A stretch of 64,000 nucleotides of DNA, taken from positions 1-64,000 of IMG/VR virus record IMGVR_UViG_3300037069_000806. The stretch is one strand, 5' to 3'. This DNA is from a virus. Below the pieces are notes generated by a model. The model was not told where the DNA came from and did no database searches. It saw only the letters and a list, made by a program, of their open reading frames with translations. Shown here one piece after another: positions 28,483 to 64,000 of the stretch (the stretch's first letter is position 1; each line of letters begins with the position of its first letter). Position numbers and translations under genes: made by a program.

Positions 28483-30084
28483 ATGTTGAGTCTCAGCCTC
28501 TACCCCTACCAGGACTCTGCGGTCGACAAGTTTCTCGACCGTGGTTCCCTCCTGGTCGCGTACGAGATGGGCCTGGGCAAGTCCATCATCGCCACCGCTG
28601 CCGCTGAGGAACTGTTCGGCGAGGACGAGATCGACATGTGCGCCCTGGTCGTCCCGGCCGCACTGAAGTACCAGTGGGCCAAGAACCTGGCCAAGTACAC
28701 CGACGTGGACACCCGGACCATCAAGGTCCAGGGCGAGCAGATAGTCGTCCCCACGGAGGAGTACTGCTCCATCATCGACGGCACCCCCAAGCAGCGCGAG
28801 GCCGCGTACCGCATGGCTGCGCTTCGCCGGGTCGACTACGTGATCCTCGGGTACGAAAACGTGGTCAACGACTGGCTTCTCGTCAAGAGGCTGGACCCCG
28901 GCATGATCGTGCTGGACGAGGCCACCGCCATCAAGTCGTTCAAGGCGCAGCGGAGCAAGAAGGTGAAGCGGTGGGACGCCCCGTACCGAATGGCCCTGAC
29001 CGGGACCCCTGTTGAGAACCGACCCGAGGAACTCTTCTCGATCATGCAGTGGGTGGACCCCGACCTCCTCGGCCGGTTCGATCTGTTCGACAAGTCCTTC
29101 ATCGTCCGCAACCACTTCGGCGGAGTGAAGGCCTACAAGAATCTGCCCACCCTGCACGGCAAGGTCCAGCAGGTCGTGTCCAGGAAGAAGCGCCTCGACC
29201 CTGACGTCCGGGACTACCTGCCTGAGGTGAGCGAGGACGTATGGCGCGTGAAGGTCGACCCCCGGATCCGGGAGACGTACACCAAGATCGCCGACGATCT
29301 GCTGGCTGAACTGGAGTCCATCAACATGTCGGGGGGCTTCGACGTGGGGGCCTACTACTCCGGGAAGATGCAGCCGGATGAGAACACGGCTCTCGGGAAG
29401 ATCATGTCCCGTCAGCAGGCGATGGAGATGCTGCTCGACCACCCTGCCCTGGTCGTGGCCTCAGCCACCAAGTACAACGATCCGGCCAGCAAGGAGGGAT
29501 CGAAGTACGCGGCCGAACTCCTGGCAGGTGGCTGGCTGGAGGGACTGAAGTCCAGTGCCAAGTTGGACCGGGTCTACGAAGAGGTGGTCGACATCCTGGA
29601 CAGCCACCCCGGCAACAAGGTGGTCATCTTCAGCGTCTACCGGGAGATGGGCCGGGTGCTGGCCGTGACCCTGCCCTACAAGAGCGTCCTGTTCCACGGA
29701 GAGATGAACGCCGGGCAGAAGGCGGCAGCCCAGGCCCAGTTCGAGAAGGACCCGGATACCCGGCTCTTCCTGTCATCCCATGCCGGAGGTTACGGGGTCG
29801 ACCTGTTCATGGCCAACCACCTGATCAACTACGACCTCGCCTGGTCGGCAGGCAAGCAGGATCAGATCAACGCCCGACACGTCCGGGCCAGCAGCGAGTT
29901 CTCCAACGTCTTCATCCACAACGTGCTGGTGGCCAACACGGTGGAGGACCGGAAGTACCAGATGCTGGCCCACAAGCGCCGGGTCGCGGGGTCGATCATC
30001 GACGGCATCGGGTCGGACACCAAAGGAAAGATCGAGAACGACCTCGTGTCGCTGTCAGAGTTCCTTCGTGGCCGGGTATCTTAG
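28483..30084 (+). CDS. SNF2-family helicase/ATPase
   Basis: 533 residues. Motif I is EMGLGKS (28-34), motif II IVLDEATAIKS near 147, motif III ALTGTPVENRPEE near 172. The C-terminal lobe has FLSSHAGGYGVDL and DQINARHVRASS in place of motifs V and VI. Such single-protein SNF2-like enzymes are common next to phage replication genes and remodel or translocate on duplex DNA, for instance at forks. An ACCGGTTCC palindrome half lies 26 nt upstream. A second, different SNF2 gene is at 58531. Confidence 0.85.
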   Translation: MLSLSLYPYQDSAVDKFLDRGSLLVAYEMGLGKSIIATAAAEELFGEDEIDMCALVVPAALKYQWAKNLAKYTDVDTRTIKVQGEQIVVPTEEYCSIIDGTPKQREAAYRMAALRRVDYVILGYENVVNDWLLVKRLDPGMIVLDEATAIKSFKAQRSKKVKRWDAPYRMALTGTPVENRPEELFSIMQWVDPDLLGRFDLFDKSFIVRNHFGGVKAYKNLPTLHGKVQQVVSRKKRLDPDVRDYLPEVSEDVWRVKVDPRIRETYTKIADDLLAELESINMSGGFDVGAYYSGKMQPDENTALGKIMSRQQAMEMLLDHPALVVASATKYNDPASKEGSKYAAELLAGGWLEGLKSSAKLDRVYEEVVDILDSHPGNKVVIFSVYREMGRVLAVTLPYKSVLFHGEMNAGQKAAAQAQFEKDPDTRLFLSSHAGGYGVDLFMANHLINYDLAWSAGKQDQINARHVRASSEFSNVFIHNVLVANTVEDRKYQMLAHKRRVAGSIIDGIGSDTKGKIENDLVSLSEFLRGRVS

Positions 30085-30586: not shown

Positions 30587-31039
30587 TTGTCGACTGCAAC
30601 CGTCCCCGCCCGGGCCTCCCGCTCCAGGGTCGTCCCCATCGAGCGCCAGGCCGTGGAGTTCCTCACCCTGAAGCGCGAGTCCGACCTCATCGGCAAGCGC
30701 ATGACCGACATCAAGAAGTCGATCATGGAGGTGCTCGCCAATCAAGAGGAGACGGACGAGAAGGGCAGCAAGTTCTACGGGCTGTCCAAGCCCATCGAGT
30801 CCGGCGGCAAGACGTACACCACCCTGAAGCGCGAGCGGGTGCTCACGCAGATGGTGGACGAGGACGAGGCCGAGACGATCCTCACCAAGAAGGGCCTCTA
30901 CGACGAGTGCCTCGTTCTTGAGCCGCGCCTCGATCATGACAAGGTCTATGCCCTGTACCAGGAGGGCAAGATCTCCGAGGCCGAGATCGACCGGATCTTC
31001 ACCTACAAGGAGTCGTTCCGGCTCCAGACACTCGTGTGA
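30587..31039 (+). CDS. Unknown helical protein
   Basis: 150 residues from TTG with CGGAG 6 nt upstream. Long charged helices (EFLTLKRESDLIGKRMTDIKKSIMEVL) suggest a coiled coil; the C-terminus (LVLEPRLDHDKVYALYQEGKISEAEIDRIF) resembles helix-hairpin subunits of phage recombination or inhibitor proteins. No firm family. It is coupled to the MerR-like gene by an ATGA-type overlap. Confidence 0.5.
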   Translation: MSTATVPARASRSRVVPIERQAVEFLTLKRESDLIGKRMTDIKKSIMEVLANQEETDEKGSKFYGLSKPIESGGKTYTTLKRERVLTQMVDEDEAETILTKKGLYDECLVLEPRLDHDKVYALYQEGKISEAEIDRIFTYKESFRLQTLV

Positions 31040-31461
31040 TGGGGGTCCTGGACCGCTTCTCGGAGGACACCGAGTACTTCCCGGGAAGCAACCGCCCTGT
31101 CGTCCGCGAACCGGCCGCGCCCAAGGACGAGACCGCGTGGGATGCCAAGCCCAAGGTGTACGTGGTGGCTGGTCGTGAGGTGGAGTTCTTCACCGTCGGC
31201 ATGCTCGCACGCGCGCTTCATCGCGAGGCCGTGACCATCCGGAAGTGGGAGCGCGAGGGGATCATCCCCAAGGCCACCTACCGGGGCCAGTCGGTGGACC
31301 CGCGCGGCAAGCGGCGTCTGTACACCCGCGATCAGGTCGAGGGAATGCTCAAGATCGCGTGGGCCGAGGGTCTGATGTCCGGCCGCAAGGTGCAGATCCG
31401 CAGGACCCAGTTCACCAAGCGCGTGGTCGACCTGTTCAAGTCGCTTGGGGGCCCGGCATGA
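31039..31461 (+). CDS. MerR-like DNA-binding protein
   Basis: 140 residues; the ATG overlaps the previous stop, with in-frame GTG 31036 as an alternative. Residues about 50-105 form a MerR-type winged helix (FTVGMLARALHREAVTIRKWEREGIIPKATYR, then GKRRLYTRDQVEGML). The N-terminus is Pro-rich and there is no ligand-binding domain. It may be a transcription regulator or excisionase-like architectural protein. Confidence 0.7.
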   Translation: MGVLDRFSEDTEYFPGSNRPVVREPAAPKDETAWDAKPKVYVVAGREVEFFTVGMLARALHREAVTIRKWEREGIIPKATYRGQSVDPRGKRRLYTRDQVEGMLKIAWAEGLMSGRKVQIRRTQFTKRVVDLFKSLGGPA

Positions 31462-38738: not shown

Positions 38739-38982
38739 AGATGTTTCGGTCGAGGCCAAGTACACCGACAAGAAGTCGTTCAGCCTGAAGGTGGACGACC
38801 TTCTCCTCGCCGAGAAGTACGCGCTCTTGGACGACCGCGACCTCGTCTTCGCCATCGAGTTCTCCACGGCTGGCCGCACCTTCGCGGTCATCTCGTGGGA
38901 GGACTACCTCGGACTCAAGGCCACATCGAATCTCATCGGGGGTGAACGCCATGGTAATGCGCCTGAGAACACCGGCTCCTGA
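38620..38982 (+). CDS. PDDEXK Holliday-junction resolvase-like nuclease
   Basis: 120 residues from GTG with a GGAGG site 5 nt upstream. It overlaps the RecA gene by 119 nt. RLAKDIGGSRNAMSGAGWLRKNDV is followed by VEAKYTDKKSFSL; the Asp of KNDV and the Glu and Lys of VEAK make a D...E-x-K nuclease site. This pattern is typical of small phage resolvases that cut branched DNA. Pairing with RecA supports a recombination or packaging role. Confidence 0.65.
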   Translation: MDRQIKRSRQQETRLAKDIGGSRNAMSGAGWLRKNDVQSEDVSVEAKYTDKKSFSLKVDDLLLAEKYALLDDRDLVFAIEFSTAGRTFAVISWEDYLGLKATSNLIGGERHGNAPENTGS

Positions 38983-39337
38983 CTGGAGCAGGGCCAAGTG
39001 CGTCCGCTTCCCACCCAAGCGGGACGCTGACCCCTGGTACGACGACATGGACGAGGCTATTCAGGTCTGCAACGGGGACGCCGACGGCATCGTCTGCCCG
39101 CTCCGCCAGCAGTGCCTGGAGTTCGCGCTCGTCAACAACCTGGCGCACGGGATCTTCGGTGGCATGTACGAGCATGACCGCCGCCGCCTGCGACGCGACG
39201 CCCGCGAGGTCAAGAAGCCGTGGCATCAGGCCATCGAGGACGGTGATTGGACATGGCAGGAGCCAACCGAGTTGTGCGACGACGCACCGGAGGAAGTGGA
39301 GCCGGAGGAGGACGAGTACGACCCCGAGGCAGCCTAG
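38942..39337 (+). CDS. WhiB-like Fe-S transcription factor
   Basis: 131 residues from GTG (ATG 38951 possible), overlapping the resolvase by 41 nt. Four Cys at about 20, 43, 52 and 58, then GIFGG at 70-74 and the basic tail HDRRRLRRD, match the WhiB plan: iron-sulfur cluster, G-x-x-GG turn, DNA-binding tail. The spacing between the second and third Cys is 8 residues, against the usual 2, so the cluster loop is expanded. WhiB proteins bind sigma factors and are confined to actinobacteria and their phages, which supports the host assignment. An acidic C-terminal extension follows. Confidence 0.8.
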   Translation: MNAMVMRLRTPAPDWSRAKCVRFPPKRDADPWYDDMDEAIQVCNGDADGIVCPLRQQCLEFALVNNLAHGIFGGMYEHDRRRLRRDAREVKKPWHQAIEDGDWTWQEPTELCDDAPEEVEPEEDEYDPEAA

Positions 39338-40914: not shown

Positions 40915-41264
40915 CCAGCATCTGGCGTGCTCAGGTCACTCGTCCCACTGAGCCCTGGCGGTTCAGTGGCGAATACGGCGCGCTCCTCAATGTGGACGTC
41001 GCCCTCTCCCCGGACTACGGGTCGGATTGGGCGGTCTTCTGGAGCGGTGGCGAAACGTTGACCCACGTCCGGTTCACCGAGGAGGGGGTCCGTCCTGCGA
41101 GTCCCCAGGTCCGGATCCCAGAGGAGGCGGCCAGGGCCCTGTATGACGCGCTGGGCTACTACTTCGGCGGCCACTCCACCCCCAACCAGGCCGCCCTGGC
41201 TGATGCGCTGAAGGTCGAGCGCGGCCGGGTGGACCTCGTCCTGAAGAAACTCCTGGAGGACTGA
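40911..41264 (+). CDS. Unknown protein
   Basis: 117 residues from ATG inside the previous gene. Beta-rich N-terminus (ALLNVDVALSPDYGSDWAVFWSGGE) and helical C-terminus (PEEAARALYDALGYYFGG, then ERGRVDLVLKKLLED). The TGA overlaps the Pup-like start. No enzyme motif recognised. Confidence 0.55.
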   Translation: MTSIWRAQVTRPTEPWRFSGEYGALLNVDVALSPDYGSDWAVFWSGGETLTHVRFTEEGVRPASPQVRIPEEAARALYDALGYYFGGHSTPNQAALADALKVERGRVDLVLKKLLED

Positions 41265-41461
41265 TGAGCGAGCAGACGTTCAAGAACACCCAGTCCTCGA
41301 AGACGGAGGAAGCGGATGTGGTGGCTCCGGTTCCCACCGAGAGCATCGCGGATCAAGAACTGATGAAGAGCACCGACGACCTGCTGGACGAGATCGACAC
41401 GCTGCTGGAGCCCAACGCCCAGGAGTTCGTGGACGGTTTCGTTCAGAAGGGCGGCGAGTGA
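41264..41461 (+). CDS. pup: Prokaryotic ubiquitin-like protein (Pup)
   Basis: 65 residues, the normal size of Pup. The N-terminal half is disordered and polar. The C-terminal half is the Pup signature, with STDDLLDEIDTLLEPNAQEF followed by VDGFVQKGGE. The central helix binds the Mpa/ARC proteasomal ATPase coiled coil; the C-terminal Gly-Gly-Glu is the residue linked by PafA to substrate lysines. Because it ends in Glu, no Dop deamidation should be needed. No PafA, Dop, Mpa or proteasome gene is visible, so it would have to use host enzymes. It overlaps its neighbours by 1 nt on each side, so it is co-translated with ThyX. Confidence 0.9.
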   Translation: MSEQTFKNTQSSKTEEADVVAPVPTESIADQELMKSTDDLLDEIDTLLEPNAQEFVDGFVQKGGE

Positions 41462-53693: not shown

Positions 53694-55202
53694 ATGAAGA
53701 TCTGGTACGGCGGGAGCGAGATCCCTGGCTGGCGCACGCTCCTGGAAGAGGAGCAGATCCCGCATGTCGCCCTGTCCTTCGTCGGCCTCGGCCGCAGGAA
53801 CAAGTTCACCAAGCCTTGGATCGTCGCCGAGCGGTACCCGGACTGGCAGCAGGTCTTCCTCGACTCAGGTGCGCACTCGCTGAACAAGCGGGACGACATC
53901 GAAGAGGACACCCTCCTGGACCTGTACGAGAAGTACCGATCTCTGGTCATGGCCAACCTGGACCGGATCGCGATGGTCTCCGAGTTCGACGCCCTGGCCC
54001 TCGGGACCGATTGGATGGAGCGGCAGCGGACCGACTTCTGGGCTGACATCCCGACCGATAAGTTCGTCCCCATCTGGCACGCTGAACAAGGCCTGGGGGC
54101 GCTGGAGGCGCTGTGCGACCGCTTCCCCCAGGTCGGCGTGACCGCCTCAGCGATGGGCGGTAGGGACCTCGCGCCGTTCCTCGGCAGGCTTCACCGCACC
54201 TACGGGACGTGGCTGCACGGGGTCAACATGTCCAAGGTCGAGGAGATGCAGACCCTCCCGTGGCACTCCATCTCGACAATCTCGTGGCTCTCCCCGGCCC
54301 AGTACGGCGACACCATTGTGTGGACCGGTCGGGAACTCAAGCGCTACCCGAAGAAGATGAAGGAGCAGGCGCGAAAGCGGCACCGCACCGTCATTTCCGG
54401 AGCCGGTCTGAATCCGGAACTGATAGAGAACGACGACCCCAAAGAGGTGCTTCGACTGTCGCTGTGGTCCTGGCGTCAACTGGAGGCCAAGATCGACCGC
54501 CGACACCTCGCGGTGGTCCCGGAGGGCGAAAGTAGTAACTCTTTCGCCGAACAGACGTCAGGAGCGAACGTGGTCACCGACGACACAGATGTTGATACGA
54601 AGGCTCCGGAGGCTGCGTACGAAGGTACAACTTCGGCGGTGCTGAAGGTTCGCGAACGTATCAACTTGCCCATCTTCGGACAGATCACGAAGACGGTCCC
54701 TGGGTTCGGGGAGGACGGGGCCCCGGAGGAGCAGGAGATCACCCTCCTGAACAGCCGTTCGGAGTCCCTCCGGATGTGCGACACCTGCTTCCTGGCGTCC
54801 AAGTGTCCGGCAATGGAGCCCAAGAGCAACTGCGTCTATGACATCCCGATGGAGATCCGCACCAAGGACCAACTGGACGCTCTCCAGGACTCCCTCATCG
54901 AAATCCAGGCCCAGAGGGTCGCTTTCATGCGGATGTCGGAGGATCTGGAGGGCGGATATGCGGATCCCAACCTCTCCAACGAACTCGACCGCCTCGGCAA
55001 GATGATCCAGCGCAAGCAGGACAGCCAGGACGAGCGGGTCTCGATCAACATCCAGGCACAGGCTCGTGGCCAGGCCGGGATGATCTCGCGAATCTTCGGG
55101 AGGGACGCTGGGGACTCCGTCCGAGCACTCCCCGGCGGCCCTATCTCGGTCGAGCGGGCCATGGAGGACTCACCGATTCTGGACGCTGAGGTCATCGACT
55201 GA
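53694..55202 (+). CDS. TGT/DpdA-like TIM-barrel protein fused to Cys-rich domain
   Basis: 502 residues. Residues 1-250 show a TGT-like pattern: VFLDSGAHSL near 56, SEFDALALG near 92, IWHAEQ near 126, VGVTASAMGGRDL near 146, LHGVNMSK near 175 and SISTISWLS near 193. These resemble the DSG, QGG, GGL and barrel-end motifs of tRNA-guanine and DNA 7-deazaguanine transglycosylases. Residues 360-395 hold a Cys cluster (CDTCFLASKCP...C), followed by helices (NELDRLGKMIQRKQD). No deazaguanine synthesis genes are in the window. The fold is a moderate-confidence call. Confidence 0.5.
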   Translation: MKIWYGGSEIPGWRTLLEEEQIPHVALSFVGLGRRNKFTKPWIVAERYPDWQQVFLDSGAHSLNKRDDIEEDTLLDLYEKYRSLVMANLDRIAMVSEFDALALGTDWMERQRTDFWADIPTDKFVPIWHAEQGLGALEALCDRFPQVGVTASAMGGRDLAPFLGRLHRTYGTWLHGVNMSKVEEMQTLPWHSISTISWLSPAQYGDTIVWTGRELKRYPKKMKEQARKRHRTVISGAGLNPELIENDDPKEVLRLSLWSWRQLEAKIDRRHLAVVPEGESSNSFAEQTSGANVVTDDTDVDTKAPEAAYEGTTSAVLKVRERINLPIFGQITKTVPGFGEDGAPEEQEITLLNSRSESLRMCDTCFLASKCPAMEPKSNCVYDIPMEIRTKDQLDALQDSLIEIQAQRVAFMRMSEDLEGGYADPNLSNELDRLGKMIQRKQDSQDERVSINIQAQARGQAGMISRIFGRDAGDSVRALPGGPISVERAMEDSPILDAEVID

Positions 55203-55378: not shown

Positions 55379-55538
55379 ATTTACCAGAAGCGCGCCACTT
55401 GGGGCACCGGCCATCAGAAAGTGATTGCCGAAGACATCTCGACATTCTCCTTTCGGGATCTTGCTGCCCTGGCCCGCCTTGACTCCCTGCCCCGGCCATT
55501 GGCTGACCCCTCACACGCAACACACCGGGCGAAACCCC

Positions 55539-55573
55539 TTGACAACCGGTTCACGGGGCCTCAACCTGGAGGC
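55539..55573 (+). promoter_or_regulatory. Leaderless promoter 1
   Basis: TTGACA (55539-55544), 17 nt, CAACCT (55562-55567), 6 nt, ATG 55574. AACCGGTT (55544-55551) overlaps the -35. First of seven with the same geometry. Confidence 0.75.
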
Positions 55574-55816
55574 ATGTCAACCGGACGCCGCGCCATCATG
55601 AACCGCAAGTCGGGCACCTGCCACTGCGGTGCCCACGTCCCGAGCGGGACCGGTCTCGCAGTCGCCCCCAGCGGTTACGGCCGGAAGCCCTGGGAGGTGC
55701 TCTGCCCCACCCACGCCGCTGACCACCAGCGCCAGTACCAGGCCGTCGAGGACGACCGGCTGGCGTACTACGGCAGCGCCGAGCGGGCCGACTCCTTCGC
55801 CCCGAGTGGCTGGTGA
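55574..55816 (+). CDS. Small zinc-binding protein
   Basis: 80 residues from ATG placed 6 nt after the -10 of promoter 1; earlier in-frame starts would pass through the promoter. CHCG and LCPTHAADH suggest a zinc site. The C-terminus is acidic and polar. Function unknown. Confidence 0.6.
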   Translation: MSTGRRAIMNRKSGTCHCGAHVPSGTGLAVAPSGYGRKPWEVLCPTHAADHQRQYQAVEDDRLAYYGSAERADSFAPSGW

Positions 55817-55917
55817 CCGTGGACGACTTCGGGCTCTGCCCTCACCTCGACAACCAGTGCGACCCAGCCTCTGCACCGTGCGGCGGCTGCCGACAGGACC
55901 AGGAGACAACGTCATGA
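55813..55917 (+). CDS. Tiny Cys-rich protein
   Basis: 34 residues from GTG in a GTGA overlap. Four Cys: CPHLDNQC and CGGC, a compact zinc-binding pattern. The stop overlaps the next ATG. Probably a real mini-gene because both ends are coupled. Confidence 0.45.
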   Translation: MTVDDFGLCPHLDNQCDPASAPCGGCRQDQETTS

Positions 55918-56075
55918 GCAAGACCTACCGGGACGCTCACGTGGACCGCGTGCAGGAACTGCGCCGGGGGAGCCGGACCGACCGGTTCAGCCCGACCAAG
56001 GACCGCCGGGTCAAGGGCGGCCGTTCCGACCAGCGGCGGATCCTCGCCACCCTCAACCTGAAGGGCGAGTACTGA
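55914..56075 (+). CDS. Small basic protein
   Basis: 53 residues in an ATGA overlap. Highly basic (RVQELRRGSRTDRFSPTKDRR, KGGRSDQRRIL). May bind nucleic acid. Function unknown. Confidence 0.5.
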   Translation: MSKTYRDAHVDRVQELRRGSRTDRFSPTKDRRVKGGRSDQRRILATLNLKGEY

Positions 56076-56077
56076 TC

Positions 56078-56299
56078 ATGTACCCGAACTCCTCCTCCTG
56101 CCCCTACGGCGAGACGTGCTGCCCCCGCGAGGGGTCGTCCTGGCCTCTCACCACCGTTCACCTCAAGGACGGCGACAACGGTGTCCAGGTCCGGGGTCGG
56201 CTGACCACCACGGACGACGAGGTCACCCTGACCACGAAGAGCGGACGGCGTTACGTCTTCCCGCGCGAGGGTGTCGCGTACTGGATCGTGGAGGCCTGA
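56078..56299 (+). CDS. Unknown small protein
   Basis: 73 residues, 2 nt after the previous stop. Three Cys in the first 15 residues, then a beta-hairpin-like region (GVQVRGRLTTTDDEVTLTTKSGRRYVFP). The stop overlaps the next ATG. Confidence 0.5.
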   Translation: MYPNSSSCPYGETCCPREGSSWPLTTVHLKDGDNGVQVRGRLTTTDDEVTLTTKSGRRYVFPREGVAYWIVEA

Positions 56300-56388
56300 T
56301 GCTCGACCGGCCCTTTGCCGTCGCGCTGTTCATCGTGTCCGTCGTCGCCTTCCTCTGGGTGATTCTTCGCGACGACAGCATCGACTGA
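56299..56388 (+). CDS. Tiny single-pass membrane protein
   Basis: 29 residues: MLDRP, a transmembrane helix (FAVALFIVSVVAFLWVIL) and RDDSID. The ATG overlaps the previous TGA. Probably an early membrane-active peptide; unknown. Confidence 0.5.
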   Translation: MLDRPFAVALFIVSVVAFLWVILRDDSID

Positions 56389-56409
56389 CAAGCCTTTCTG
56401 TGAAACCTA

Positions 56410-56444
56410 TTGACCACCACCCACGGAAGCCCCACACTGGAGCC
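56410..56444 (+). promoter_or_regulatory. Leaderless promoter 2
   Basis: TTGACC (56410-56415), 17 nt, CACACT (56433-56438), 6 nt, ATG 56445. The AACCGGTT palindrome is replaced by ACCACCCA here. Confidence 0.75.
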
Positions 56445-57254
56445 ATGGACCTCACCACGCCCGCTCAGATCGACACCCGCCTCGCCGCCATCTACTGGGA
56501 GGAGGCCAAGGTCCGCGCCGAGCGCGACCAGGCGCTCGCCAACCTCCGCCGGATCGTCGCGGCGCAGGGCACTTACGAGGCGGCGTACTACTGGAACAGC
56601 CCGGAGAAGCAGGCCGAGGCCGAGCGCGTGATCAACGCGGCCGACGCCGAGATCACCCGCCTGGGGAACGAGGCCGAGCCGCTGGAGGCGCAGTACGCCG
56701 CACGTCGCTGGACCCGGTACTACCTCGTGACCAACAGCAACGGGCACGTCCACTCCTCCACCTCGTGCGACACCTGCTTCCCGACGACCCAGTACGCGTG
56801 GCTGACCGAGCAGTCCGGCATGACAGCCGAGGCGCTGGTCGACCTGGCGGGCGAGTCGGCATGCACCGTCTGCTTCCCGTGGGCACCGGTCGCGGTGCTC
56901 GCGCGCCCCTCGGTGCTGGAGGCCCCGGAGCGAAAGGCGGCGCGCGAGGAGCGCGAGGCCAAGCGGGCAGCGCGGGACGCGAAGAAGGTCGAGAAGGCGC
57001 TCTTCACCGACGAGCCCGACCGGGTGATCAAGATCGACGTCCACTACCTGGGCACCGTGGCTGCTGCCCGCTCGTGGCTGACCGATGCGGCGCAGTGGAA
57101 GGGCTGGTACGAGGCCGATGGGCGCGAGGGCGGCCACCCCTCCTACCCGCCGGAGGGCGTCGCCCAGGTCGCCCAGGCCGTCGCTGCCAAGGAAGGCAAG
57201 ACCACCGAGACCGTGCTGGACGAGGCTGCCAAGCGCGCAGCGAAGAGGAAGTGA
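56445..57254 (+). CDS. Coiled-coil protein with zinc-binding core
   Basis: 269 residues. N-terminal coiled coil (IYWEEAKVRAERDQALANL), a core with CDTCFP near 110 and CTVCFPWAP near 145 forming a four-Cys zinc site, then a charged helix (RKAAREEREAKRAARDAKK) and a C-terminal DVHYLGTVAAARSWL segment. The ATG follows promoter 2 directly. Function unknown; possibly a host take-over protein. Confidence 0.6.
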   Translation: MDLTTPAQIDTRLAAIYWEEAKVRAERDQALANLRRIVAAQGTYEAAYYWNSPEKQAEAERVINAADAEITRLGNEAEPLEAQYAARRWTRYYLVTNSNGHVHSSTSCDTCFPTTQYAWLTEQSGMTAEALVDLAGESACTVCFPWAPVAVLARPSVLEAPERKAAREEREAKRAARDAKKVEKALFTDEPDRVIKIDVHYLGTVAAARSWLTDAAQWKGWYEADGREGGHPSYPPEGVAQVAQAVAAKEGKTTETVLDEAAKRAAKRK

Positions 57255-57258
57255 CATC

Positions 57259-57567
57259 ATGATCACGTACAGCCTGTTCCTCCCGGTGCTGACCCGGGAC
57301 CCGGACGCGATCCGGCGCGCGCTCTACGCGCACTCGTCGGTGGTCAAAGAGGTCGAGGTCAGCGCCAACCACGCCGCCCTCATCGTCCGCGTGGACGCGG
57401 CCACCAACGACGCCGAGGTCGGCCCGGTCAGGAGCCGGGCGCAGTTTCTGGCCGAGTACCAGCGCGGTCGGCTGCTCTCGTTCCTGGGCACCGCCGTGAT
57501 CGAGCCCCAGGAGACCGAGGAGACGGCGTACGCCCTCCTGGTCGATCTGGTCGGCGCGCTGGTCTGA
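57259..57567 (+). CDS. Unknown protein
   Basis: 102 residues, 4 nt after the previous stop. Hydrophobic/strand-helix pattern (TYSLFLPVLTRDPDAIRRAL; HAALIVRVDAATNDAEV). No motif recognised. Confidence 0.5.
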   Translation: MITYSLFLPVLTRDPDAIRRALYAHSSVVKEVEVSANHAALIVRVDAATNDAEVGPVRSRAQFLAEYQRGRLLSFLGTAVIEPQETEETAYALLVDLVGALV

Positions 57568-57602
57568 CCTTCACCGGTAGTCAAGGATCTCCGCGAAACC
57601 CC

Positions 57603-57637
57603 TTGACCACCGGTTCGGACGGCCCCATACTGGACAC
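57603..57637 (+). promoter_or_regulatory. Leaderless promoter 3
   Basis: TTGACC (57603-57608), 17 nt, CATACT (57626-57631), 6 nt, ATG 57638. CACCGGTT (57607-57614) overlaps the -35. Confidence 0.78.
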
Positions 57638-58027
57638 ATGACGAACCGCGCCCAGGCCCCGCAGGACTTCATCGGCTCGTACGGCTCGACCTGGCGCGCA
57701 GGCGTCATCTCCGAGCACGTCCCCGCGTTCGTGGCAGCAGGCGGCCAGGTCCGCCCGGCCGCATCCGGCTCCGGTCTCTCGTGGGCGGTCATGACCGACG
57801 CCAACGGCTGGGCGCTCCCCGTCGTGTGCTCTGCCCTGGTGGCGGTCTACACCGAGGACGGCGCGCAGACGGGTCGCTGCGGCGCGGACGCCACGGTCGA
57901 CGGCTCGTGCCCCGGTCACGCCGAGGAGGCCGCCTCCTGGCTGGCAGCCAGCGAGGCCGAGCGCGTCCGCTGGGAGAAGGACGCCGACGCGTGGGCCGTC
58001 CAGGTCGCACCCGGGCTGTGGGTGTGA
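57638..58027 (+). CDS. Unknown protein
   Basis: 129 residues directly behind promoter 3. Globular, with three Cys (VVCSAL, GRCG, SCPGH) and GLSWAVMTDANGWALP. C-terminal helix EAASWLAASEAERVRWEK. Function unknown. Confidence 0.55.
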   Translation: MTNRAQAPQDFIGSYGSTWRAGVISEHVPAFVAAGGQVRPAASGSGLSWAVMTDANGWALPVVCSALVAVYTEDGAQTGRCGADATVDGSCPGHAEEAASWLAASEAERVRWEKDADAWAVQVAPGLWV

Positions 58028-58320
58028 CCACGCTCGCGCGCAACAGCCGACGGGCCGACCTGGCCGCGATGGGGACGCCGTCCCCGTTCCGCGCCAAGGC
58101 CGACAGCCGTCGCGCCCGTGAGGCGCAGGCCATGATCAACAAGCGGGTCGCCGAGGTCGCCTGGCTCCGCACCCTGCTCGACCAGCCGATGCCTGCGGCC
58201 CGCCGTCGCATCGCCCAGCAGCGGCTGTCCGCCACCCAGGCCAGCCTGGCGTCGTGGGTCACGTACCTGGACGACGGTGCCGAGCGCGAACCCCGAGCCG
58301 TGGCGAAGGTGACGCGGTGA
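58024..58320 (+). CDS. Unknown basic helical protein
   Basis: 98 residues from GTG in a GTGA overlap. Arg/Ala-rich helices (SRRAREAQAMINKRVAEVAWL; ARRRIAQQRLSATQASL). May bind nucleic acid. Stop overlaps the next GTG. Confidence 0.5.
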   Translation: MTTLARNSRRADLAAMGTPSPFRAKADSRRAREAQAMINKRVAEVAWLRTLLDQPMPAARRRIAQQRLSATQASLASWVTYLDDGAEREPRAVAKVTR

Positions 58321-58466
58321 CCGTCGAGGGCCACGTGTTCCCCGGGCGCGACCAGGCATGCGCCCGAGCGGGCTGCACTGTGACCCAGGCCGAGGTGTGG
58401 CTGGACATCGACTGCGCCCGCGACTCCCACCACCAGGGCAGCCGCTGTGTCGGCTTTCCCCTCTGA
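58317..58466 (+). CDS. Small Cys-containing protein
   Basis: 49 residues from GTG in a GTGA overlap. Cys at CARAGC, CARDSHH and RCVGF suggest a zinc site. Function unknown. Confidence 0.45.
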   Translation: MTVEGHVFPGRDQACARAGCTVTQAEVWLDIDCARDSHHQGSRCVGFPL

Positions 58467-58495
58467 GCGACACGCAAGAAGATTGGGTAAAGTGC

Positions 58496-58530
58496 TTGAC
58501 AACCGGTTGGCCAGGCCTCATTCTGGACAC
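58496..58530 (+). promoter_or_regulatory. Leaderless promoter 4
   Basis: TTGACA (58496-58501), 17 nt, CATTCT (58519-58524), 6 nt, ATG 58531. AACCGGTT (58501-58508) overlaps the -35. Confidence 0.78.
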
Positions 58531-60297
58531 ATGCACCCCACCACTTCAGACTTCGTTGTTGCTCCCGAGGGCGAGATCACCCGCGTCGTGAAGGCCGCCA
58601 AGGTCGTCAAGGACAAGGTCGCGCTCGTCTGGAAGAACGTGGACGAGCGCCAGGACGACGCGCTCTCCCTCAAGGTCCGTGACCTGCCCGGACGCACCTA
58701 CCTGCGCTCGAAGAAGATCAACGTGGTCGACCTCTCCAAGGAGGTTGTCGACTTCCTGTTCGCCGAGCGCTTCCTCGGTCTGGACGAGGTCGAGGCGGCG
58801 TACGCCGCGCTCCTGGCCGCCGAGGCCGCCGAGCGTGCCCGCAAGGCCGCTGCGATTGAGGCCAGCAAGGCCCAGGACACCGACCGCGAGGTCGCGCTGT
58901 CCCAGTTCCTGTACGGCTACCAGAAGGCGGGCGTCGAGTACGTCCTCGACCACGCGGACGGCCGCGCGATCATCGGCGATGAGATGGGGCTGGGCAAGAG
59001 CATCCAGGCCATCGCTGCCATCGAGGACGCCGACGCGTACCCGGCCATGGTCGCCTGCCCCCCGCACCTCGTGCGCAACTGGGTTCGGGAGTTCGGCAAG
59101 TTCAACCCCCAGCGCAAGGTCGTGATCGCCAAGGGCGTCACCCCGGACCCTGCCACCATCGCAGGCGCGGACGTGGTCGTCATCGGCTACGCGGTCCTGT
59201 CAGCGTGGGTCGGCTACCGGGTCGGTGACCCGCTGACCGGCGACCTGCTGTTCAAGAACGTCAAGTCGGTTGTCTTCGATGAGGCGCACTACCTGAAGAA
59301 CGACAAGTCGAGCCGGGCCAAGGCCGCACACGCACTGGCCCAGCGGCTGGACCCGAGCGCCCTGCGCCTGGCCCTGACCGGCACGGCTGTCCTCAACCGG
59401 GCGGACGAGATCCTGTCGCTCATCGAGGTCATCGGTCGCTGGAAGGAGTTCGGCTCCAAGGCCGAGTTCTTCCGCACCTACGTCGAGGGCACGAGCCAGG
59501 AGACCCTGGAAGGCCTGAACGAGCGCCTGCGCAGCCTCTGCTACGTGCGTCGGCTGAAGTGCGACGTGCTGCCCGACCTCCCGGCCAAGCGCCGCGTGGA
59601 CGCGTACTGCGAGGCCCCGGCCGACATCGCGCGCCAGTACGAGCGGGCCGCCAAGGACGTGATCGCGTTCCTGCTGGAGACGGCTGGCGAGAAGAAGGCC
59701 TCTTTCGCGGCGCGCGCCCAGGCGCTGGTTCGCCTCAACCTGCTGCGTCGCCTGGCCGGTCAGGCCAAGGTCGAGGCGGCAGTCGAGTGGGCCGAGGAGT
59801 TCGTCGGCAACAGCGAGCGCTCGCTGGTCGTGTTCGCCACGCACAAGGACGTCCAGGACGGGATCTACGACGGTCTGGTCGACGCCGGTGTCTCGGTCGC
59901 CCGGGTTCACGGCGACGACAACGACACCAAGGTCGAGACCGAGATCGCCCGGTTCCAGGCCAAGGGCGCGCGGGTCATCGTCTGCGGGCTCAAGAAGGCA
60001 GGCACCGGCATCACCCTCACGGCTGCCAGCGACGTGCTGATCGTGGAGCAGGACTGGACCCCGGCCAACCTGAACCAGGCTGAGGACCGGGTCCACAGGA
60101 TCGGCCAGGAAGAGTCCGTCATGGCCACCCACCTCGTGGTGGACCTGCCCATTGATGAGCACCTGCGGTCCGTGGTCGCCCGCAAGCAGGTCATCTGCGA
60201 CGCAGTCAACCAGGGCCAGGGCAGCACCGAGGAACTGACCGAGGGTTCGGTCATGGACGAGGTGATCGACCTCCTCACCGGCCGCAAGGCCTCGTGA
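58531..60297 (+). CDS. SNF2-family helicase (SMARCAL1-like)
   Basis: 588 residues from the ATG 6 nt after promoter 4; the longer frame from 58447 would cross the promoter. Motif I EMGLGKS (151-157), motif II VVFDEAHYLKN near 250, motif III ALTGTAVLNR near 285. The C-terminal lobe has GLKKAGTGITLTAAS and EDRVHRIGQEE, classic motifs V and VI of SWI2/SNF2. N-terminal 120 residues are unique. Unlike the protein at 28483, motif VI is intact. It may act on host chromatin-like complexes or forks early in infection. Confidence 0.85.
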   Translation: MHPTTSDFVVAPEGEITRVVKAAKVVKDKVALVWKNVDERQDDALSLKVRDLPGRTYLRSKKINVVDLSKEVVDFLFAERFLGLDEVEAAYAALLAAEAAERARKAAAIEASKAQDTDREVALSQFLYGYQKAGVEYVLDHADGRAIIGDEMGLGKSIQAIAAIEDADAYPAMVACPPHLVRNWVREFGKFNPQRKVVIAKGVTPDPATIAGADVVVIGYAVLSAWVGYRVGDPLTGDLLFKNVKSVVFDEAHYLKNDKSSRAKAAHALAQRLDPSALRLALTGTAVLNRADEILSLIEVIGRWKEFGSKAEFFRTYVEGTSQETLEGLNERLRSLCYVRRLKCDVLPDLPAKRRVDAYCEAPADIARQYERAAKDVIAFLLETAGEKKASFAARAQALVRLNLLRRLAGQAKVEAAVEWAEEFVGNSERSLVVFATHKDVQDGIYDGLVDAGVSVARVHGDDNDTKVETEIARFQAKGARVIVCGLKKAGTGITLTAASDVLIVEQDWTPANLNQAEDRVHRIGQEESVMATHLVVDLPIDEHLRSVVARKQVICDAVNQGQGSTEELTEGSVMDEVIDLLTGRKAS

Positions 60298-60451
60298 GGA
60301 TCCGGTCTGGCCCCCACGTCGCGACGTGGGACCACCCGCACCGCACACGAGCGATTCGTGCCGACGCTGGTGGGGGCCAGGCCCGGGGGAGAGGGAGTTA
60401 CCGGGGGCTCCCTCTCCCCTCCACCACTGACAAGTGGTAGCCCGAAGAGAC
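60298..60451 (+). other. Structured intergenic region (possible RNA element)
   Basis: Several inverted repeats: an 11-bp outer stem CTGGCCCCCAC (60307-60317) with GTGGGGGCCAG (60370-60380); inside it, an 18-bp perfect palindrome CCCACGTCGCGACGTGGG (60313-60330) that competes with it; and a CACGA-GCGAT-TCGTG hairpin. A terminator stem follows at 60386. No gene was found. It could be an attenuator, protein-binding RNA or a compound terminator. Confidence 0.6.
60386..60419 (+). terminator. Transcription terminator hairpin
   Basis: Perfect 12-bp stem: GGGGAGAGGGAG (60386-60397) with CTCCCTCTCCCC (60408-60419), 10-nt loop. It closes the SNF2 operon just before leaderless promoter 5. Confidence 0.8.
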
Positions 60452-60486
60452 TTGACCACCCTCGCAGGAAGCCTCATACTGAAGAC
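60452..60486 (+). promoter_or_regulatory. Leaderless promoter 5
   Basis: TTGACC (60452-60457), 17 nt, CATACT (60475-60480), 6 nt, ATG 60487. The AACCGGTT palindrome is absent (ACCACCCT). Confidence 0.76.
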
Positions 60487-60657
60487 ATGACCAAGACCTT
60501 CGCCCCCGGCGACCGCGTCCAGTACCGCCTCCCGATGAACCACACCTGGACGACCGGCCTCGTCCTCGACGTCCACCAGGGCGCGGGAACCGCCGCTGCC
60601 TACCTCGTGGACTACGCACCCACCGGTCTCTGGACCTCGACTGTGAAGGCAGCCTGA
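60487..60657 (+). CDS. Small unknown protein
   Basis: 56 residues directly after promoter 5. Beta-rich with an SH3-like look: FAPGDRVQYRLP, TWTTGLVLDVHQGAG, AYLVDYAPTGLW. Function unknown. Confidence 0.55.
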   Translation: MTKTFAPGDRVQYRLPMNHTWTTGLVLDVHQGAGTAAAYLVDYAPTGLWTSTVKAA

Positions 60658-60658
60658 C

Positions 60659-61657
60659 GTGAGCACCTCGACCCTGGACGACGTCTTCGGCGACCTGGAC
60701 TTTGACGACCTGGAGGAAGAGGTCGCGCAGGTCTCGTCCGAGAACGTGTGGGACCGGCACGACCGCCTGAAGAGTGAGATGGAGGCGGCCCAGGCCGCAG
60801 CCGAAGCGGCCCGCGACTCGTGGTTCGAGCGGAAGATCCGCGTGTCCCCGTCGTACTTCAACCGGAGCACCTGGGCGCTTCTAGCGCGCAATCTCGACAA
60901 CCTGGAAGACCGGGACATGGATCGCGCGACGCGCTACTTCAACGGAGACGTTGAGGGCATGTCCGGCCGCCAGGTCGCCGAGCACATCCTGTCGATGGTG
61001 CGCCGCGACCGGGAGGTGCTGCTCGCTGAGACCGAGTCGCAGCAGGTCTACGCCGCCGCCAAGGACGAGGCCGAGAAGGCCGGGTTCCCGGTCGGCTCCG
61101 TGGTCGCATTCAAGACGACCAAGGGTCAGAGCAACCACATGCACGCGGAGGGTGTCGTCCGCGAGGTGACCACCGCCAACTACATCGTGACCATCGACAA
61201 GCAACGCAGCGACTACGACATGCGCGAGCAGGACACAGCGCGGATCAAGATCGCACGGGCCACCAAGTCCGCGTGGTCCGGCGGCCGAGAGATGGTGCTG
61301 GTGTGGGGACCGTCCAGCGCCAGCGCGTACCAGGCCCGGATGGCCGAGGAGGCCCGCAAGGCGCGCGAGGAGCAGCGTCGCAACGCGGCTGCGCAGAACG
61401 CGTGGCGCGCGGCGCAGGCCAAGTGGAGCGAGGTCCAAACCTCGTGGGCAGACTACGAGCAGGCCCAGCGCGCTGTCGTGGGCAACGCCGCTGCGGCAGC
61501 CCTTCAGGTGCTGATCCAGCGCCACCAGGACGAGATGGCCCGGCTGGTGGCCGAGAAGACCAACACCCTGACCGCTAACCTGCGGGTGCCGAACGTCGCC
61601 AAGTACGAGCGCCCGTCCAACCGCTGGCAGGACTACCTGGAGGGTGAGCAGGCATGA
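60659..61657 (+). CDS. Coiled-coil protein, unknown
   Basis: 332 residues from GTG. Begins STSTLDDVFGDLDF; the DDVFGDL motif recurs in the gene at 63850. Middle region VVAFKTTKGQSNHMHAEGVVRE is beta-rich; the C-terminal third is a long Ala/Gln/Arg helix (EEARKAREEQRRNAAAQNAW). The last 4 nt overlap the metallohydrolase gene. Confidence 0.55.
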   Translation: MSTSTLDDVFGDLDFDDLEEEVAQVSSENVWDRHDRLKSEMEAAQAAAEAARDSWFERKIRVSPSYFNRSTWALLARNLDNLEDRDMDRATRYFNGDVEGMSGRQVAEHILSMVRRDREVLLAETESQQVYAAAKDEAEKAGFPVGSVVAFKTTKGQSNHMHAEGVVREVTTANYIVTIDKQRSDYDMREQDTARIKIARATKSAWSGGREMVLVWGPSSASAYQARMAEEARKAREEQRRNAAAQNAWRAAQAKWSEVQTSWADYEQAQRAVVGNAAAAALQVLIQRHQDEMARLVAEKTNTLTANLRVPNVAKYERPSNRWQDYLEGEQA

Positions 61658-62133
61658 GTGACCACCAGCGCCAGCGCGCGTACCGGGCCGAGTGGAAGGT
61701 GCGACACCTCGGTGTCCACCTCCCCAGCGCCGACCACGTCAAGGCCCTGATCAAGATCGCCGAGCGGCTGCCTTGGATCCCCGAGGGCCGCAAGGGCTGC
61801 ATGGTCGAGGTGTCGATGGTCACCACGCGCGCGTACTACGGCGGGGGAGTGATGCACATCCCGGCCAAGAGCATCGGTCCGTCGGGTGACTGGGCGTGGA
61901 CTGACATCGTGGTTCTGCACGAGTACGCGCACCACCTGGCAACTACTGACCACGGTCATGATGACGTCTTCACCAGCACCCTGCTGCGCCTGCTGCGCGG
62001 CGTGGGCAGGGACGAGGTGGCAGATGCCCTGGAAGCGGCCTACAAGGCCACCGGAGCGGCTGTCAGGGACTGCCAAGAGGTTACCCCCAACCCCTTGTCA
62101 ACGGCTTCCGTAGGCCCCACAATGGACTCATGA
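61654..62133 (+). CDS. Zinc metallohydrolase (TIGR04338-like)
   Basis: 159 residues. HEYAHH at 89-94 with a downstream HGHDDVF (100-106) gives an HExxH...H zinc site of the putative metallohydrolase type common in actinobacteria. The stop is one base past the ATG of the next mini-gene, and promoter 6 is embedded in the last codons (NPLSTASVGPTMDS). The substrate is unknown. A host-like acquired gene is plausible. Confidence 0.7.
   Translation: MSDHQRQRAYRAEWKVRHLGVHLPSADHVKALIKIAERLPWIPEGRKGCMVEVSMVTTRAYYGGGVMHIPAKSIGPSGDWAWTDIVVLHEYAHHLATTDHGHDDVFTSTLLRLLRGVGRDEVADALEAAYKATGAAVRDCQEVTPNPLSTASVGPTMDS
62095..62129 (+). promoter_or_regulatory. Leaderless promoter 6 (inside metallohydrolase gene)
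   Basis: TTGTCA (62095-62100), 17 nt, CACAAT (62118-62123), 6 nt, ATG 62130. It lies within the 3' end of the gene at 61654. Confidence 0.7.
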
Positions 62134-62228
62134 CCACCACTGACTTCGGCCCCGTGTACGTCGGCACCGAAACACTGAGCCCCGCATCCGAACGGTACGG
62201 CGAGAACAGCACCACCGGACAGGAGTGA
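62130..62228 (+). CDS. 32-residue leader-type mini-protein
   Basis: The ATG is exactly 6 nt after promoter 6, so it would be the first codon of the transcript. Sequence MTTTDFGPVYVGTETLSP... ends TTGQE at a TGA overlapping the next ATG. It may be a short leader that couples translation of the next gene, which begins with a similar MTTT. Confidence 0.5.
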   Translation: MTTTDFGPVYVGTETLSPASERYGENSTTGQE

Positions 62229-62671
62229 TGACCACCACAGAGCGCACCGTGCCCTGGTGGGTCCGTCACCACCACGAGTTCAGCCAGCAGACCACCACCA
62301 AGGAGAGCGCCGTGCCCACCACTGTCACCCGCGACCAGGCCGAGGCCGCCCTCCAGGCGGTCAAGGACTACTTCGCCAAGTGGACCGCCGACCTGATCCT
62401 GGACGGTGAGAACTTCGGCCCGACCATCGACACCCAGCCGGTGCTCCTCCAGGGGCTGGACGGCGTCTACCAGATCATCTGGGAGGACGGCCCTGACGAC
62501 TGGGCCATGACGCGCATCCACGGGGAGGACACCGAGGAGGACCGCGCACTGCGGGCCGAGGCTGGTCTCCCGAACTACCGCACCACCCCACGCAAGGCGC
62601 TCGTGCTGCCCAAGGGCGTCCACGCCGAGCCCTACATGTCCTTCGTCCTCTCGCTCTACACGGAAGGCTGA
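62228..62671 (+). CDS. Unknown protein
   Basis: 147 residues, ATG overlapping the leader stop. N-terminus MTTTERTVPWWVRHHHEF; core AEAALQAVKDYFAKWTADLILDG and GVYQIIWEDGPDDWAM. An internal GTG (62312) could give a shorter form. No family recognised. Confidence 0.5.
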   Translation: MTTTERTVPWWVRHHHEFSQQTTTKESAVPTTVTRDQAEAALQAVKDYFAKWTADLILDGENFGPTIDTQPVLLQGLDGVYQIIWEDGPDDWAMTRIHGEDTEEDRALRAEAGLPNYRTTPRKALVLPKGVHAEPYMSFVLSLYTEG

Positions 62672-62673
62672 CC

Positions 62674-62904
62674 ATGAGCAAGCAGGTAACCATCTTCCTG
62701 CCCGACGGCTACGAGGACGCGGACTACGCGGTGCTCGTGGACGCCAACCGGCACGTGGGCCCTAAGGCCGAGTGGGCCGCCCACGTGATCCGGCTGAACG
62801 TCGAGCCGGATGCCAACAGCGAGGTCGAGGAGATCGGCATCGCGGGCGCGCTCAATGCGCTCATGCTGGACGCGGCCAAGGTCATCAGGAAGGACGCGTC
62901 ATGA
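62674..62904 (+). CDS. Unknown small protein
   Basis: 76 residues, 2 nt after the previous stop. Sequence KQVTIFLPDGYEDADYAVLVD, then NSEVEEIGIAGALNALMLDAA. Acidic, mixed alpha/beta. Function unknown. Confidence 0.5.
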   Translation: MSKQVTIFLPDGYEDADYAVLVDANRHVGPKAEWAAHVIRLNVEPDANSEVEEIGIAGALNALMLDAAKVIRKDAS

Positions 62905-63092
62905 CGGACAAGGACATCACCCTGACCGCGAGCGACGCGGACACCATCTCCATGCTGCTGGGGCACGCTGTCGACTACTTCAACCAGCAGGCCGTGAACA
63001 TGGAGGACGAAGACGCGGCCGTCGCCGAGTCCTACCGCGACCTGGCCGAGATGGCCCAGCACTACCAGGACAAGATGATGAGGAGCCGGTAG
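62901..63092 (+). CDS. Unknown small acidic protein
   Basis: 63 residues in an ATGA overlap. Helical and acidic (SDADTISMLLGHAVDYFNQQ; AESYRDLAEMAQHYQDKMM). Function unknown. Confidence 0.5.
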   Translation: MTDKDITLTASDADTISMLLGHAVDYFNQQAVNMEDEDAAVAESYRDLAEMAQHYQDKMMRSR

Positions 63093-63094
63093 CC

Positions 63095-63409
63095 ATGACC
63101 ACCCTGCTGCGTTGGCTGACGGGCAAGGAAAAGGAAGCACCGCCTGCCCAGTCGCAGATCGGCACCACGCCGATGACGTCGTACTGGGTCGAAGGCGCGG
63201 TGCCCCACGGCCTGGAGGCGTCGGGCTACGTCGAGGCCGATGGCTGGGAGATCCCGGCCTGGCAGATCAACATCTACCGCGCGCTGCGCGGCCTGGGTTG
63301 GGACCACGACATGGCGTACGCCGGTCTCCAGTTCGCTTCACCGCTGGCCGACGAGGGCATCACGGACGAGAACACGTTGCTGCGCCGCGCGCTGAGGGTG
63401 GGTGACTGA
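63095..63409 (+). CDS. Unknown protein
   Basis: 104 residues, 2 nt after the previous stop. Basic start (LLRWLTGKEKEAP), then YVEADGWEIPAWQINIYRALRGLGWDHD. No motif recognised. Confidence 0.5.
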   Translation: MTTLLRWLTGKEKEAPPAQSQIGTTPMTSYWVEGAVPHGLEASGYVEADGWEIPAWQINIYRALRGLGWDHDMAYAGLQFASPLADEGITDENTLLRRALRVGD

Positions 63410-63410
63410 C

Positions 63411-63554
63411 ATGGGGTGCCTGCACTGCCGTCAGGAGGTCACGAAGAGCGGCCCCTCTGGCTGGTGGATCCACGTCAAGGGTGGAGGCACGTGGTGTACG
63501 TATCCGGGCTTCTACGGCAACCGCGCCGAGCCCACAAAAGAGGTGACGGTCTGA
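63411..63554 (+). CDS. Tiny Cys protein
   Basis: 47 residues. CLHC at the N-terminus and a later Cys in GTWCTYPGFYG may bind zinc. The stop overlaps the next ATG. Function unknown. Confidence 0.45.
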   Translation: MGCLHCRQEVTKSGPSGWWIHVKGGGTWCTYPGFYGNRAEPTKEVTV

Positions 63555-63793
63555 TGGCCACCCGTCCTCTGTCGTCCGATGAGCACTACCGGCGAGCCGA
63601 GTCGATCCTGACGGGGGTCGAGAACGGCGAGTACACGAACCACACGCACATGCTGCGGCTCGCCCAGATCCACGCCACGCTCTCGCTGCGGTCGAACCCG
63701 CTGCGTCCGAACCCGCTGATCACGAGCACCGGGGAGGACTGGGAGCAGAAGGACTGGGAGAAGCGACAGAAGGCGCATCCCCCAACCGGCTGA
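63554..63793 (+). CDS. Unknown small protein
   Basis: 79 residues. Helical, charged (HYRRAESILTGVENGEYTNH; EDWEQKDWEKRQK). Its reading frame carries TLSLRSNPLRPNPLI in the middle. Function unknown. Confidence 0.5.
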   Translation: MATRPLSSDEHYRRAESILTGVENGEYTNHTHMLRLAQIHATLSLRSNPLRPNPLITSTGEDWEQKDWEKRQKAHPPTG

Positions 63794-63814
63794 CAAGAAA
63801 CACCCCGAAACCCC

Positions 63815-63849
63815 TGGACAACCGGTTCCCCCAGCCCCATACTTGAGGC
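63815..63849 (+). promoter_or_regulatory. Leaderless promoter 7
   Basis: TGGACA (63815-63820), 17 nt, CATACT (63838-63843), 6 nt, ATG 63850. AACCGGTT (63820-63827) overlaps the -35. Confidence 0.75.
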
Positions 63850-64000
63850 ATGACCTCCTCTACCACCACCGCTGCCCCTGCTGACGACGTCTTCGGCGAC
63901 CTGGCCGCCATCGAGGCCGAACTTCAGATGGTCGAGGACGCCGCGCAGGCCGAGCGCGAGGACGCCTCCAAGTACACGGGCCGCGTGGGCGGGTCGGCCA
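63850..64000 (+). CDS. Unknown protein, 3' end outside window
   Basis: The first 50 codons are visible, from the ATG 6 nt after promoter 7. It contains DDVFGDL, encoded by the same 22 bases as in the gene at 60659, so the two are probably paralogues. The remainder is helical and acidic. The gene continues past the window. Confidence 0.6.
   Translation, partial: MTSSTTTAAPADDVFGDLAAIEAELQMVEDAAQAEREDASKYTGRVGGSA

Follow-up and report, generated by a model that had tools for sequence, protein, structure and literature searches.

Leaderless promoters in actinobacteria and their phages

The leaderless route is common in actinobacteria, accounting for 21% of the primary transcription start sites in S. 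coelicolor (PMC4895711), and in mycobacteria an RTG at the 5' end suffices (PMC4633059). In mycobacteriophages, leaderless promoters PL1, PR2 and PL2 were put forward, as predictions only, for Cluster O, the Corndog group (PMC4351075), with two or three sites per genome in AT-rich intergenic regions, and the 17-bp palindrome of these phages is a separate repeat. The Cluster K phage Adephagia carries the ESAS, seven copies of a motif of about 46 bp in which a SigA-like promoter with 17-18 bp spacing is accompanied by an imperfect inverted repeat (PMC11373665); the ESAS stands upstream of the start-associated sequence (SAS), 13 bp adjoining the start codon with a ribosome site 3-9 nt before it. 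Nothing direct on leaderless promoters of Streptomyces phages was found in the literature.

The locus described here is alike in layout to the Cluster K ESAS, being a multi-copy promoter joined to an imperfectly dyad-symmetric element, but it differs from it by the lack of a SAS-like ribosome site, the ATG following 6 nt after the -10 with no Shine-Dalgarno (SD)-like sequence at a usable distance. Compared with Cluster O, it shows one geometry in all seven promoters of the family, together with an upstream element common to relatives. Leaderless mRNAs of Streptomyces and mycobacteria share with it a -10 ending about 6-7 nt before the start codon, the absence of an SD and usually an ATG start; they belong, however, to host genes scattered over the genome, whereas the present promoters form a compact group in a phage, all with the same upstream element. 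As a whole, the sites can be read with good confidence as seven right-arm operon-head promoters that would give leaderless mRNAs and are attached to an inherited upstream control module, the leader having most likely been lost in this lineage.

A contractile-tailed phage and its relatives

The window, that is the whole stretch of DNA analysed, comprises 64,000 nt of the 67,492-nt IMG/VR record IMGVR_UViG_3300037069_000806. It belongs to a contractile-tailed phage with genes for tail sheath, baseplate, tape measure, DnaB, polymerase, ribonucleotide reductase, and RecA/UvsX-like and Cas4-like proteins. Among named phages it is related to GiJojo, LuckySocke, Alone3, pSt2308 and BRock, whose tail sheath is about 46% identical; because these infect Streptomyces, the host is likely an actinomycete, presumably one of soil. 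Three environmental phages, G047, G048 and G049 (loci L104-L106), which like the window are metagenomic IMG/VR records, are closer and syntenic over most of the genome, with identities of 55-57% for DnaB, 59-60% for the polymerase and 65-66% for the RecA-like protein; the same three proteins are 49%, 56% and 57% identical in phage G053, and 36%, 51% and 50% in GiJojo.

Beside thyX, the window also encodes a Pup-like protein of 65 aa (41264-41461, + strand; Pfam PF05639, E=8e-17) whose last residues, GGE, are those of a conjugation-ready prokaryotic ubiquitin-like protein. It was matched neither in 50,697 phage records nor in ten records of related phages, and nothing direct on phage-encoded Pup was found in the literature.

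Seven promoters with one geometry

The right arm consists of small genes and starts after a homologue of DpdA-like tRNA-guanine transglycosylase (53694-55202, + strand), a gene named in GiJojo, which suggests a 7-deazaguanine modification of the DNA. All seven promoters lie in this arm and on the + strand, where the preliminary description had placed them. Their layout is gap-free and identical throughout: a CAAG-type block, 17 nt, a TTGAC-type -35, 17 nt, a NANNNT -10, 6 nt, and the ATG. Head-gene starts, except that at 56445, were placed by the position of the ATG and the open frame.

P1 (55518-55576) has its upstream block CAAC at 55518-55521, -35 TTGACA at 55539-55544, -10 CAACCT at 55562-55567 and ATG at 55574, heading an 80-aa gene with no function assigned (55574-55816) and coupled small genes up to 56388. 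P2 (56389-56447; CAAG 56389-56392, TTGACC 56410-56415, CACACT 56433-56438, ATG 56445), which is orthologous to leadered promoters of the three closer relatives, precedes a gene of 269 aa (56445-57254; phrog_15500, no function assigned). At P3 (57582-57640), CAAG at 57582-57585, TTGACC at 57603-57608 and CATACT at 57626-57631 lead to the ATG at 57638 of a 129-aa gene with no function assigned (57638-58027), and at P4 (58475-58533), CAAG at 58475-58478, TTGACA at 58496-58501 and CATTCT at 58519-58524 lead to the ATG at 58531 of a DNA helicase of 588 aa (58531-60297; phrog_62). P5 (60431-60489; CAAG 60431-60434, TTGACC 60452-60457, CATACT 60475-60480, ATG 60487) heads a 56-aa gene with no function assigned (60487-60657), followed by genes 60659-61657 and 61654-62133. 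P6 (62074-62132; CAAG 62074-62077, TTGTCA 62095-62100, CACAAT 62118-62123, ATG 62130) falls within the 3'-terminal part of ORF 61654-62133, and its 32-aa head ORF (62130-62228) has a stop overlapping the start of gene 62228-62671. P7 (63794-63852) comprises CAAG at 63794-63797, TGGACA at 63815-63820, CATACT at 63838-63843 and the ATG at 63850 of a 282-aa DUF6011 gene, which runs from 63850 to the window end at 64000 and on to record position 64698; all these head genes are on the + strand.

The near-exact repetition of TTGAC[A/C] and CA[T/C]ACT hexamers announced previously held for the 17-nt and 6-nt spacings in every copy, while several hexamers are looser: CAACCT at the -10 of 55539, CATTCT at that of 58496, TTGTCA with CACAAT at 62095 and a TGGACA -35 at 63815. 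The -35 is TTGAC[AC] in five promoters and one mismatch away in the other two, always with the 17-nt spacing, as in main-sigma promoters (TTGACA-like, 16-18 nt). The -10 boxes are CAyaCT-like: in all seven, position 2 is A, position 6 is T, and position 1 is a C, never a T; since this departs from TANNNT in each copy, promoter strength is uncertain. The never-T first position was missed in the preliminary description, as was the upstream element.

This arrangement is specific. The strict gapped TTGAC...CT-ATG pattern gave 5 matches where shuffled sequences predict 0.14, and the full pattern with up to three mismatches gave 9, the seven sites included, with 1.92 expected. An ATG at distance 6 was found for 7 of the 28 promoter-like sites of the record, the mean being 0.24 per offset over distances 10-59. 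In leave-one-out scoring over both strands of the 67.5-kb record, every non-member position scored below each of the seven, and the search for further members across the record, including the last 3.5 kb past the window, yielded none.

The spacer ACCGGTT is common to four of the promoters, so some copying among the seven sites is possible, and descent may account for part of their identical spacing. In its strong form, with the sites being no more than recent duplicates of a single promoter whose exact spacing was copied rather than constrained, this explanation is unlikely: the shared spacer and the roughly 60 nt of gap-free alignment fit it, but the stretches between blocks are randomised, as in the 8 nt after CAAG, while blocks and spacings are fixed, and the module is older than the lineage, being present in G047-G049.

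Ribosome sites and 5' structure of the head genes

The claim that head genes lack ribosome sites was borne out. With SD energies counted at a spacer of at least 3 nt, the seven heads range from -2.4 to +0.7 kcal/mol versus -4.5 to -12.3 kcal/mol for 15 downstream genes, two disjoint ranges (Mann-Whitney p=0.0002). Gene 55574 does have a GGAGG, but it stands 1 nt before the ATG, too near for normal SD use. The GGA preceding the ATG was considered as an SD and rejected, being 3 nt away, weak in energy and better explained as a promoter discriminator. Structure over +1 to +40 is also weaker in the heads (mean -4.3 vs -9.1 kcal/mol, p=0.003), a feature to be expected where ribosomes enter an mRNA at its 5' end.

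Two helicase genes of phrog_62 are present in the window (28483-30084 and 58531-60297, both +); for the second, behind P4, no equivalent stands at the corresponding position of the relatives compared. Positions 60307-60421, which lie between this operon and P5, hold two strong GC-rich hairpins without a T-run, a possible actinobacterial-type terminator; intrinsic terminators with a T-run were sought between the + strand operons and none was found.

An alternative in which the real transcripts start farther upstream, so that the heads are leadered and the TTGAC...CAyACT boxes serve regulation or act as decoys, could draw on the missing first T of the -10 boxes, on the want of T-run intrinsic terminators between operons, and on P6, which sits in a coding region with its ATG overlapping the TGA of ORF 61654-62133 (ATGA). 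Because of that overlap, transcripts from upstream could offer gene 62130 a second route to translation through coupling, and read-through could serve it. Such an origin of the transcripts is nevertheless improbable, as no usable SD precedes any of the seven ATGs whereas 15 of 15 other genes have one, the boxes align gap-free with the promoters of relatives up to the -10, and the strong double hairpin separates the P4 operon from P5.

An upstream element common to four phages

Each promoter carries a 30-bp upstream element with a CAAG-type block beginning exactly 21 nt before the -35, then GAAA. In the window, CAA is invariant and G is found in six of seven copies at -56 to -53, and an AAA block stands directly before the -35. 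Nine alignment columns reach at least 6/7 identity, while random ATG sets never gave more than five, and the 8 nt after CAAG vary freely among the seven promoters with blocks and spacings fixed. The seven promoters of the window and 23 leadered ones of G047, G048 and G049 have CAAG or AAAG, or in a few cases CAA, at exactly 21 nt ahead of the -35, with AAAG mostly replacing CAAG in G049; the window set thus shares the features that define this promoter family in the relatives, CAAG/AAAG at 21 nt and GAAA before the -35. A matrix built only from the relatives' 23 elements, with the -35 excluded, ranked the seven sites of the window among the top 0.003-0.7% of positions, and none of 200,000 random draws attained their summed score.

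The element is imperfectly dyad-symmetric (CAAGcGGTT...GAAAccGCTTG), and among all the centres tested the one at -44.5 scored best, whether or not the -35 hexamer was included. The relatives' matrix gave a signal again on the window minus strand at four promoters, as a two-fold symmetric site would. Covariation between the dyad arms was tested and none was found beyond the consensus, leaving consensus symmetry as the sole support for the dyad; protein binding sites need not covary. The element is read as an inherited control module, most likely the binding site of one putative regulator, which would overlap the -35 and handle all copies as one regulon; a dimeric regulator is a likely candidate.

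It is also possible, though less favoured, that the element is an UP element contacted by the polymerase alpha subunit through AAG, GTT and GAAA steps at -55 to -40 in GC-rich surroundings, a proposal that concerns the element alone and is compatible with leaderless heads. Its positions match the UP-element region and its conserved bases are AT-rich versus a 65% GC background; the conservation of specific G and C positions and the dyad-like layout with its best centre, on the other hand, are not needed by an UP element and speak against this proposal.

Two DNA-binding proteins of the window were noted as candidate regulators: a MerR-like protein (31036-31461, +), 45-53% identical in all five compared relatives, and a WhiB-family transcription factor (38942-39337, +), conserved in G047-G049, G053 and GiJojo. 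The ORFs put through Pfam or PHROGs scans, which took in part of the small ones, yielded no sigma factor.

The same module with and without a leader

The CAAG promoters of G047-G049 resemble those of the window in the element, its distance to TTGACA, their arm and one orthologous promoter, with 17-18 nt to the -10. They differ in having mostly a TA-type -10, a leader of 35-58 nt and a strong SD. Leaders of 35-46 nt with a strong SD were found in all ten CAAG promoters of G048 and all seven of G047, and leaders of 37-58 nt in all six of G049. The orthologues of gene 56445 align from residue 1 with the same start codon (MDLTT/MYLTT/MDLKT) and have leaders of 39-42 nt and SD energies of -10.3 to -10.9. 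P2 aligns gap-free with the G047 and G048 promoters up to the -10, after which about 35 nt are absent, indicating that the module is common and that the leader is the difference. By this comparison, the module's leader appears absent at every detectable copy in the window phage, and its lineage most likely lost the leader at all of them and kept the module; that the change was a loss here and not a gain elsewhere is what we infer from the three relatives.

As a family, the CAAG element is absent from GiJojo, LuckySocke, pSt2308 and BRock, but one or two promoters in each of them look leaderless. In G053, which lacks the CAAG element, an ATG stands at distance 6 in six cases (0.9 expected), and for this reason leaderless heads and the CAAG element look like separate traits. 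Leaderless heads therefore probably arose more than once in the phage family, given the leaderless-looking promoters of G053 and the GiJojo group outside the CAAG family. An exact-motif scan of IMG/VR found no other phage, and in genome contigs the exact motif gave six scattered single matches in unrelated bacteria, as by chance.

Two other records showed promoters of related appearance. The distant phage record G036 (L096, L097) has three TTGACAAGCAGGCA-type promoters, two of them TTGACA-N17-GATACT-N6-ATG and the third preceding an HTH-like protein. Record G055 (L122-L124) has a multi-copy promoter family like TTGACACTTCACAGTCAAGCCTGTAATGT, whose distance to the start codon is 5-7 nt in some cases and greater in others.

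Proposed mechanism and significance

The seven sites would thus be the right-arm operon-head promoters of an actinobacterial myophage related to the Streptomyces phages BRock and GiJojo. The leaderless state of the heads, suggested in the preliminary description, is well supported by the geometry, the absent SD, the weak 5' structure and the leadered orthologues with the same start codon; if the promoters work, leaderless transcription is hard to avoid. Carrying its main sigma factor, the host RNA polymerase would bind the TTGAC/NANNNT pair and begin transcription on the A of the ATG or no more than about 2 nt from it; this A is the natural +1 when the -10 ends 6 nt before the ATG, as it does in all seven promoters. 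The GGA directly after the -10 would act as a promoter discriminator and not as an SD. The mRNA would then begin with AUG and be read by the leaderless route, and the genes behind the heads via SD sites and overlapping stop-start codons. A 70S initiation route is established for leaderless mRNAs, which are also relatively resistant to kasugamycin, and may be taken on these heads, as the preliminary description proposed. The arm genes may be early, judging from gene content and position.

More speculatively, the phage may have switched a whole co-regulated operon set from SD-led to leaderless initiation with its control element kept, so that translation of the arm genes may proceed in infected cells whose SD-dependent initiation is limiting or impaired. 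Timing of the set would fall to the dyad element together with a putative phage regulator; this scenario is offered as a tentative one.

What is new is the completeness, all seven detectable promoters of the family having one geometry, the upstream element common to 30 promoters in four phages, and the contrast between leadered and leaderless promoters on a common module. No description of transcription control was found for this phage family, and the conserved element marks the members of a possible regulon. Taken together, related phages that have the same module, and at least one orthologous promoter with the same start codon, with and without a leader, constitute a natural experiment on the evolution of leaderless initiation.
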